Positions 10,163 to 32,644 of a DNA stretch of 32,644 nt are shown piece after piece. Made by a program: the position numbers and the translations under genes. Origin of the DNA: Candidatus Altimarinota bacterium (GTDB lineage Bacteria > Patescibacteriota > Gracilibacteria > BD1-5 > UBA6164); NCBI GenBank assembly GCA_028719245.1, contig JAQUKG010000008.1:1-32644 (forward strand), given 5' to 3'. Each line of letters begins with the position of its first letter. Positions within the stretch are counted from its first letter, which is position 1. The notes below the pieces were generated by a model that had not been told where the DNA came from, ran no database searches, and saw only the letters and a program-made list of their open reading frames with translations.

Positions 10163-11689
10163 ATGAAAACATTAAATAAAAAAGGTTTTACACTTGTTGA
10201 ATTAGTAGTCGTTATAACTATAATAGCAATATTATCAACAATAGCATTTGTATGATATCAACAATATTTCTGAAATTCAAGAGACTCAAATAGAGTTCAA
10301 ACTATGCAAAATATAGAAACATGATTACAATTAGCATATTCAAAGACAAGAAAATATCCAATACCAGAAGAGAATATAAGTATAAGTGTAAGTGGAACAA
10401 TAACATGATATCAATGATATTTTTGAGATAATGGTTCAAAAACAATTTTAATGAATACAACACCACTAGATCCATTAGATAATGTTAGGTATACATATTC
10501 AACAAATGCAAAATATAAAAAATACCAATTATTAACATTTCTTGAATGAGATAGTCAAACAGCATATAATCCAATAATAAACCAAACATATGCTCTAGAT
10601 TATACAGATAGAATACCACAAGAATATTGAAGTTCTTTATGAATATTATTGGATACAAATAATAATCCAGTTCAAAGCTTAGGTTCAAGTATAGATTTAC
10701 TTTTATGACAAGCTGGAACTCAATACAAAGCAGTTATATCAAATTCAACAACAATAACATGAAGTTGAGTAAATTTGTGATGAGCTATTTTGACATTATC
10801 ACAAAGTTCAAGTTTTGCAGCACCAATTACTTGTCCAACTTGATTTATACCAGTTCCATGAAATGAAACATTTATGCAACCTGGATTTTGTGTAATGAAA
10901 TATGAAGCCTGATCTCCAACACAATCTGATGCAACTTGGGCATGATTACCATATGCATCTTTAACTTCTCTACCACAATCAATATGATGAAATTATCCTA
11001 TTATTACTTTAACACAAGCACAAGCAATAACTGCATGTCAAAGCATATGAGTTTGATACCATTTGATAACAAATAATGAATGGATGACAATAGCAAGAAA
11101 TATAGAATCACAAAAAGATAATTGGAGTGGTTGAGCTGTATGAAGCTGATGAGTTTATAGATGAATAACAAATGAAACTACTTCTGCAACTAGTCTTTGA
11201 TGTCCTACATCATCTAGTACTTTTAAGGTTAGTACCAAATATGCAGCTTGAACTTCATCAATGGATACTACATTGTGGTGAGCAAGTAAGTGAAGTGATT
11301 GTGATAGCAAAAGGCAATTAAAATTATCAAATTGAGAAGTAATATGGGATTTATCTGGAAATGTTCAAGAACATGTAAATAAATTTAATGTTATAGATTG
11401 AACTAATTATAATTCATGACAAACAGTTATAGCTTGAAGTAGTGCTTGAACAGCTTGGGATGGGGATTGAATATATACTACATCAGATATGCTAAAATAT
11501 GGTTCTATATCTTCATTATGAATTGCAAATGGTATGTGAAATGTAAATTATGCAAACTGAGTTGCTTCTAATATATTTATTCGTTGAGGTAATGCTCTTT
11601 CTACTACTAATGCTTGAATTTATACAATTGACTTAATTTGAAACTCTACTACTAGTGCGAATACAACTGGATTTCGTTGTGCTAAATAA
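10163..11689 (+). CDS. Type IV pilin-like protein with C-terminal FGE/C-type-lectin-like domain
   Basis: The 508-residue product starts MKTLNKKGFTLVELVVVITI, a classic prepilin signal (cleavage after the Gly of KKG, then F-T-L-x-E and a hydrophobic helix). The pilin/pseudopilin head follows, with GYQGYFGDNGSKT and PLDPLDNVRYTYS. From about residue 230 the C-terminal half resembles the formylglycine-generating-enzyme (SUMF1) fold: GFCVMKYEAG, HLITNNEWMTIARNIES, NGEVIWDLSGNVQEHV and RGGNALS ... TTGFRCAK at the very end. Nothing shows enzymatic activity; a ligand-binding tip on a pilus-like fibre is the likelier role. A close relative of the N-terminal part begins at 31973. The gene has its own terminator, so it is monocistronic. 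Confidence 0.85.
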
Positions 11690-11769: not shown

Positions 11770-12774
11770 ATGCAAATAGATTTTTATACAACTATTATTG
11801 ATAATTACTGAGATGCTGGTTTTTCTTTTAACCTTGCTATTTCGCTATCTTATTATTATCCAAAATTAAAAATTAGATTTTTTTGTGATAATGAAAAGAT
11901 CTTTTTGAGTTTAAAATGAAATAAAGTATTTCAAAATGTTAAATATTTTGATTTAAAAGATGTTTCTAAATATAAATCTTCAAAATTGATTTTCAATTTT
12001 TTTGATAAAAAAATTGATTTTGAGTTTTTACATAAATTTAATTATGATATAAAACTTATAAATTTCTCATATTTTTTACTTCACTCTTGAGTTGGAAATC
12101 TTCATAATACAAAATATAATTCAAAAGATATTGAAGTGATTCACTACATTCCTTCATTACTTCAAAAATGATGATGAATAATAATAAATCCTTATTTAGA
12201 AGATTTTAAAAATAAAATAAATATTAAAAATACAATAAAATTAAAACAAGAGTTATTGCCAAATTTAGATAAAAATTTATACGACAAAAAATGGATTTCA
12301 ATTTTTTGTTATAAAGAAACTTTTGAAAATATAAAAGATATTATTTTAAATGATAAAGATAATCTTTATTTTGTTTTTGATAATAATTTATCTTGAGAAA
12401 ATATTATCAATATGTGATTTTTAAATATTTTAGATTATTATAAATTTCAAAATTTATGTGATAAAAATATTGTCAGATGAGAAAACAGTTTAATTAATAG
12501 TATTTTATCTTGAAAACCATTTTTATGGGATATTTACAAAGAAAATAACTCAGCTCACAAAGAAAAGATTGAAGATTTTTCAAAATATATTTTATCTAAT
12601 TTTTGAGATAATTTTTTAGATTACCTGAATATTTTTAAAGAATTTAATATTTGAAATACTAAAAAATGATTTATAGATTTTTTGAATTATGAAAATGATT
12701 TTGAAATAATCAAAAAAGATATTTTCTTAAAAAATAATTTAATAAATAATTTAGAAAAATATCTTAATCAATAA
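11770..12774 (+). CDS. earP: EarP-like EF-P arginine rhamnosyltransferase
   Basis: EarP transfers rhamnose from dTDP-rhamnose to a conserved arginine of elongation factor P, easing ribosome stalling at proline runs. The 334-residue product has two family hallmarks. IIDNYGDAGFSFNLA near the N-terminus carries the two aspartates (D11, D15) that align with the catalytic pair of characterised EarP. NIVRGENSLINSILSGKPFL (residues 234-253) continues into WDIYKENNSAHKEKIEDF and includes E238, equivalent to the essential Glu of the RGEDS motif. IHYIPSLLQK in mid-protein also fits. Length is a little below the usual 370-390. The gene stands between a terminator and the convergent queA. EF-P and rhamnose-synthesis genes are not in the window, so the substrate is inferred. 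Confidence 0.8.
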
Positions 12775-31972: not shown

Positions 31973-32644
31973 ATGCAACTCTCAAATAAAAATATCATAA
32001 AAATATTCCTCAAATCCCTAAAACCCCAAAAAGCATTTACTTTAGTAGAATTAGTAGTAGTAATAACAATAATAGCAATATTATCTACAATAGCATTCGT
32101 ATGATACCAACAATATTTTTGAAATTCAAGAGATAGTAATAGACTTCAAACAATGTGAAATGTAGAAACATGATTACAATTAATATATTGAAAAACAAGA
32201 AAATATCCAACACCAGAAGATAATATAAGTATAAATGCTAGTTGAACAACTATGATATATCAATGATATTTTTGAGATAATAGCTCAAAAACAATAAATA
32301 TGAATACTATACCTCTAGATCCATTAGATAATATTAGATATACATATTCAACAGATGTAAAATATAAGAAATATCAATTACTTGCATTTATGGAATGAGA
32401 TAGTCAAACAGCATATAATCCAATAATAGATAAAACATATGCAATAGATTATACAGATAGAATACCAAAGATATATTGAAGTAATTTAATGTGAACAATT
32501 GTTGATACAAACAATAATCCAATTCAAAGTATAACATCAACTTGAATAGATTTACTTACAACAAATAGTTGAACTGTTTATAAATTATTATTAAGTAGTG
32601 GAAGCTTAACAGCTTCTTGAAATATTATATATCAATCATTAAAT
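31973..32644 (+). CDS. Second type IV pilin-like protein (partial, runs off window)
   Basis: The 224 visible codons encode a close relative of the pilin at 10163. They share FTLVELVVVITIIAILSTIA, then FVGYQQYFGNSRDSNR, PLDPLDNIRYTYST and GDSQTAYNPII. Here the leader is longer and basic (MQLSNKNIIKIFLKSLKPQ), and the residue before FTLVE is Ala (QKAFTLVE), where prepilins usually have Gly. Divergence increases after about residue 180. Whether a lectin-like domain follows cannot be seen. It may share a transcript with the small gene 19 bases upstream. Confidence 0.85.

Follow-up and report, generated by a model that had tools for sequence, protein, structure and literature searches.

A gene in the genome of a Gracilibacteria member (earP; Table 1) encodes a protein that profile searches and a predicted structure identify as a divergent ortholog of EarP. 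We consider it likely that the enzyme rhamnosylates Arg32 of EF-P with a donor from the cell's own RmlABCD enzymes and thereby activates EF-P. EarP would bind a nucleotide-activated 6-deoxy sugar, here most likely dTDP-beta-L-rhamnose made by RmlABCD, and move the sugar with inversion onto the Arg32 guanidino group, which lies at the tip of the EF-P loop. The modified EF-P, now active, would rescue ribosomes stalled at consecutive prolines. In this scheme, we infer that the enzyme is active, which sugar it transfers, and how the modification acts on translation. The source bacterium, which reads UGA as glycine, is tiny and host-dependent. With a genome of about 1.35 Mb, it is predicted to retain a dedicated EF-P glycosylation system, while most of its phylum is without EarP.

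Table 1. Features of the predicted earP gene, with positions in the analyzed window
Feature	Positions	Strand	Basis
earP, divergent EF-P arginine (rhamno)syltransferase (predicted), GT104/PF10093, 334 aa, 13 TGA codons read as Gly	11770..12774	+	profiles, fold
Catalytic motif D11-N-Y-G-D15 (P. putida D13/D17), Gly encoded by TGA	11800..11814	+	sequence
N21, at the position of R23, one partner of the inter-domain salt bridge in P. putida	11830..11832	+	alignment
F179-C-Y181 (P. putida F191, Y193: base stacking, diphosphate contact)	12304..12312	+	alignment
F217..I220..Y223, nucleotide pocket; I220 in place of invariant Q255 (deoxyribose 3'-OH contact)	12418..12438	+	alignment; role from PMC5615199
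R236-G-E238-N-S240, diphosphate/catalytic motif RGE(D)S; N239 in place of D274; Gly encoded by TGA	12475..12489	+	alignment

Identification of the EarP ortholog

The translated protein matched the Pfam family EarP (PF10093) with an E value of 1.4e-30 and 107 bits (cutoff, 25). The NCBIfam model TIGR03837 was matched with an E value of 5.8e-31, and the 108 bits obtained fell short of its equivalog cutoff of 347; by sequence, the protein is homologous, yet too divergent for an equivalog call. EarP was the sole family matched in Pfam and NCBIfam, and sequence matches in the PDB were to EarP only. An AlphaFold model computed with 21 clade sequences (mean pLDDT, 94.4; pTM, 0.92) predicts a GT-B fold like that of the solved EarP structures. 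In a Foldseek search of the PDB, the top 14 matches were EarP chains from P. aeruginosa, N. meningitidis, and P. putida (query TM score of up to 0.84; best E value, 2e-19). The next fold family, TagF (E = 6e-7), which was followed by other GT-B enzymes, had an E value about 12 orders of magnitude higher than that of the best match. Profile search and structure comparison thus bear out the first-pass annotation, which had called the product EarP-like.

Like the EarPs of Pseudomonas and Neisseria (GT104, PF10093; PDB 5nv8, 6j7m, and 5wxk), the protein combines a predicted GT-B fold with the catalytic acids of the DNxGD and RGE motifs and with aromatic and diphosphate contacts to the donor, and its genome encodes an Arg-tip EF-P without Pro at position -2. 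It differs from them in its low identity of about 15% in the structure alignment, its shorter length, and the long branch between them, which measures 2.07 changes per site.

With TGA read as Gly, the frame is open over 334 codons and ends with a TAA stop, and the strand opposite holds no open frame. The glycines encoded by TGA in the NYGD and RGE motifs (G14 and G237) are shared by all 20 of the other clade members; Gly at G136, G248, and G135 is conserved in 19, 17, and 16 of these 20, respectively. Since TGA falls on conserved glycines, the frame is real rather than a chance opening and is native to a recoded genome, and the UGA-Gly code proposed earlier is upheld; 13 TGA codons are in frame, two of them at invariant glycines. 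The window, i.e., the whole stretch of DNA analyzed, is an entire contig (C8) of 32.6 kb from an assembly of 113 contigs that is rated 90.7% complete. Genes for ribosomal proteins make up much of this contig, which is legible only with TGA as Gly. The mainly proteobacterial record of EarP could suggest contamination or a misbinned proteobacterial gene, but this reading is ruled out by the in-frame TGA codons and by the location of earP among ribosomal-protein genes of the same code; furthermore, the nearest kin of the protein come from genomes of the same genus, with 52 to 55% identity. Synteny between the earP of the window and that of its relatives is not conserved.

Two ORFs of the window, 10163-11689 and 31973-32644, have a nearly identical pilin-like N terminus, FTLVELVVVITIIAILSTIAFVGYQQYFGNSRDSNR. 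The first of them lies directly after rplO, in the place that secY usually occupies in the spc operon; the second extends past the contig end.

Co-occurrence of EarP with one type of EF-P

The sole EF-P detected in the genome (G000:C1:45159-45704) has the loop HRAGRGTT with R32 at its tip, and its gene lies on a contig (C1) separate from that of earP (C8). In the alignment, Arg32 takes the position of Lys in the Lys-type EF-Ps and of Arg in the EF-P of PDB 3oyy and 6j7m, the latter being an EarP complex with an EF-P chain. Position -2 is Ala, which agrees with the counterselection of Pro reported for Arg-type EF-Ps (PMC6544042). An efp with Arg, not Lys, at the modified site had been named as a check on the EarP assignment, and this is what the genome contains. 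The lysine pathways of EF-P (EpmA/B and YmfI type) modify the same loop tip, but their acceptor is Lys with Pro at -2, whereas the acceptor in this EF-P is Arg, with Ala two positions before it.

Searches of 60 genomes of the order, including the source genome, found EarP in 23, and the Pfam model and the clade's own profile returned the same set. The loop RxGRGxT was present in all 22 EarP-positive genomes with an EF-P versus 2 of 33 EarP-negative genomes with an EF-P (Fisher's exact test, p = 2e-13, kinship ignored); in these two (G042 and G056), neither the Pfam model nor the clade's own profile found an EarP. The other EarP-negative genomes have VxGRGGS or VMGRGSS, both with an Arg tip, VAMGKG with a Met tip, KQARGAG, or STNKGRG with a Lys tip. 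A tree of EF-P computed without the loop columns gave two separate lineages, one of types A and D and the other of types B, C, and E. Furthermore, earP and efp are convergent neighbors in 10 relatives, with a gap of 18 to 98 bp in nine and of 619 bp in one, unlike the reference loci outside the Gracilibacteria, where efp follows downstream of earP in the same orientation.

Arg at the EF-P tip was also found in most EarP-less relatives and in many other Patescibacteria, and because EarP-less relatives share it, the Arg tip alone is not diagnostic of EarP action. The test set by the first-pass annotation is passed, as Arg32 is present, but an Arg tip is necessary and not sufficient evidence; what co-occurs with EarP is the EF-P lineage and the loop RxGRGxT in its entirety.

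The protein could also be a GT-B glycosyltransferase of EarP descent with an acceptor other than EF-P, e.g., a surface protein or a pilin. The earP of the window comes after a large pilin-like ORF, and in one relative (G001, L112) the surroundings of earP include a PilT-like ATPase and a secreted fibrinogen-like ORF, both of which were named by visual inspection. We nevertheless regard such an acceptor as highly unlikely, because EarP tracks one EF-P lineage, because earP adjoins efp in the 10 relatives mentioned above, and because two genomes (G043 and G050) whose EF-Ps belong to the EarP lineage, yet in which no EarP was found, have lost the Arg tip.

Further EF-P variants were seen in the order, which mixes EarP-positive and EarP-negative genomes with Arg-, Met-, and Lys-tip EF-Ps and is a natural experiment on the co-change of loop and enzyme. 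The loop of the G043 (L085) and G050 (L055) EF-Ps is remodeled and lengthened, with a Lys tip (KSTNKGRGKG). One genome, G035, holds both EF-P lineages, with VVGRGGS on C26 and RGGRGAT adjoining earP on C27 (L088, L082), and five genomes have two type-A EF-Ps each. Met-tip EF-Ps (KVAMGKG), with a residue that is unexpected at the modified position, occur in EarP-less relatives (L037, L038, L051, L095, L097, and L100).

Catalytic residues and donor pocket

The D-x3-D pair (D11 and D15) and E238 of the RGE motif were all located where the first-pass annotation had placed them. They match the catalytic acids D13, D17, and E273 of P. putida EarP, whose alanine variants are inactive (PMC5615199). 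The TDP-Rha pocket of the P. putida enzyme (F191, Y193, F252, F258, R271, S275, and Y291) is likewise matched throughout, by F179, Y181, F217, Y223, R236, S240, and Y256; Tyr at P. putida position 258 is the commonest residue among the reference EarPs too. Loss of the P. putida counterparts of D11, D15, E238, F179, Y181, R236, S240, or Y256 renders the enzyme inactive or less active (PMC5615199).

Other positions set the Gracilibacteria EarPs apart from those of Pseudomonas and Neisseria. In the P. putida enzyme, Q255 hydrogen-bonds the deoxyribose 3'-OH of TDP, and R23 and D274 form an inter-domain salt bridge (PMC5615199). Q255 and R23 with D/E274 are kept in 32 of 32 other EarPs, from Proteobacteria, Spirochaetes, and one Fusobacterium, versus 0 of 22 Gracilibacteria EarPs. 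The latter have I, L, F, V, or S at the position of Q255, and their R23/D274 pair reads N/N in 11 proteins, another residue with N in five, E/V in four, and E/G in two. R278 is likewise lost. The joint change at the R23 and D274 sites supports the view that they are structurally paired and suggests that the domain clamp has been re-wired. This remodeling of donor-pocket and clamp residues across the whole clade was unexpected.

In the divergent EarPs of two relatives, G051 (L029) and G053 (L019), the catalytic Glu is replaced by Asp (RGDGS). In P. putida EarP, the exchange E273D leaves a drastically impaired enzyme with some activity (PMC5615199).

Supply of the sugar donor

The genes rmlB, rmlA, and rmlC are consecutive on contig C20 of the source genome, behind a gene for a UDP-glucose/GDP-mannose dehydrogenase, and each scored above its equivalog cutoff. 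A partial rmlD (207 aa, model positions 76 to 284) is cut by the end of contig C88. The check for rmlABCD proposed along with the annotation was therefore positive, with rmlD incomplete at a contig edge. Across the order, RmlC occurs in 12 of 23 EarP-positive versus 6 of 37 EarP-negative genomes (p = 0.004). No RmlA to RmlD scored above the cutoff in 10 of the 23 EarP-positive genomes (G002, G003, G006, G008, G024, G026, G038, G045, G049, and G053), whose completeness is 80 to 99%; G002 and G008 are rated 99% complete and yet are without rml genes above the cutoff. This persistence of EarP was unexpected and raises the question of which donor the enzyme draws on in genomes that no longer have the rhamnose pathway. 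Presence and absence of rml genes alternate inside four genera, a pattern that fits repeated loss of sugar islands, binning losses, or both. In the EarP-positive genomes without rml genes, either the donor is host-derived, the assemblies lack the islands, or another sugar nucleotide is used.

EarP might still glycosylate Arg32 with a natural donor that is not, or not only, dTDP-L-rhamnose, e.g., a UDP-hexose made by the reduced cells. Consistent with this are the clade-wide loss of Q255, R23, D/E274, and R278, the ten genomes just listed, and the related epimerase of G002, G006, and G008, which was GalE in each case (one examined per genome). We consider this reading quite unlikely, as EarP and RmlC co-occur beyond expectation, the stacking and diphosphate contacts are fully kept, and pocket residues do not differ between EarPs from genomes with and without rml genes; moreover, the rml islands may have been lost in binning, or the host might supply dTDP-Rha. 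Similarly unlikely is a donor shift of the Gracilibacteria EarPs in which the remodeled pocket and clamp would serve to attach to Arg32 a sugar other than L-rhamnose or one from a host-derived sugar nucleotide; if it were true, the modification would persist in genomes that lost rmlABCD. We keep to the reading that EarP probably glycosylates Arg32 of EF-P and, in this genome, probably does so with rhamnose. The rhamnosylation proposed by the first-pass annotation is consistent with the presence of EarP, an Arg32 EF-P, and rml genes; the rhamnose itself is the part that we infer, and the donor pocket is altered.

At the end of contig C20, rmlC is followed by two short ORFs of 81 and 89 aa (L111:11318-11834) with the look, by eye, of a RelB/RelE-type toxin-antitoxin pair. 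In several relatives, this spot directly behind rmlC is taken by rmlD.

Distribution and phylogeny

EarP was found in none of 379 genomes drawn across the other Patescibacteria, and within the phylum it is limited to two families of one order. A literature search, with most subscription journals outside its scope, located no record of EarP for Gracilibacteria or the candidate phyla radiation, and a small sample of the Gracilibacteria literature held no mention of EF-P or rhamnose. Earlier records are from Beta- and Gammaproteobacteria and from some Fusobacteria, Planctomycetes, and Spirochaetes (PMC5615199). The mainly proteobacterial range given in the first-pass annotation has to be widened to these three phyla.

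In a tree of EarP sequences, those of Gracilibacteria lie together on one side of the long branch (2.07 changes per site; support, 100/100), and the Proteobacteria are grouped separately; the tree is limited by long branches and unequal letter composition and fixes neither the root nor the direction of any ancient transfer. Nesting of the Gracilibacteria EarPs within the proteobacterial ones was looked for and not found. Because the clade is placed outside the proteobacterial EarPs, the suggested gain of earP by transfer from Proteobacteria is unsupported, and a recent transfer from a proteobacterial donor likewise finds no support in the tree. The EarP/EF-P pair may plausibly be foreign, as it is confined to one order. 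The EF-P tree did not prove the type-A EF-P foreign: it separates types A and D together with EarP-type EF-Ps of other phyla from the other Patescibacteria EF-Ps (support, 98/94), but a single clade of all Gracilibacteria EF-Ps was not rejected (AU test, p = 0.19), with an outside sample that consists of EarP-linked EF-Ps only.

The EarPs of Fusobacteria (Cetobacterium) and Spirochaetes (Treponema) are, like the one described here, non-proteobacterial, and they have an adjoining efp with an Arg tip. Unlike the Gracilibacteria proteins, they retain Q255, R23, and D/E274 and group with the Proteobacteria across the long branch.
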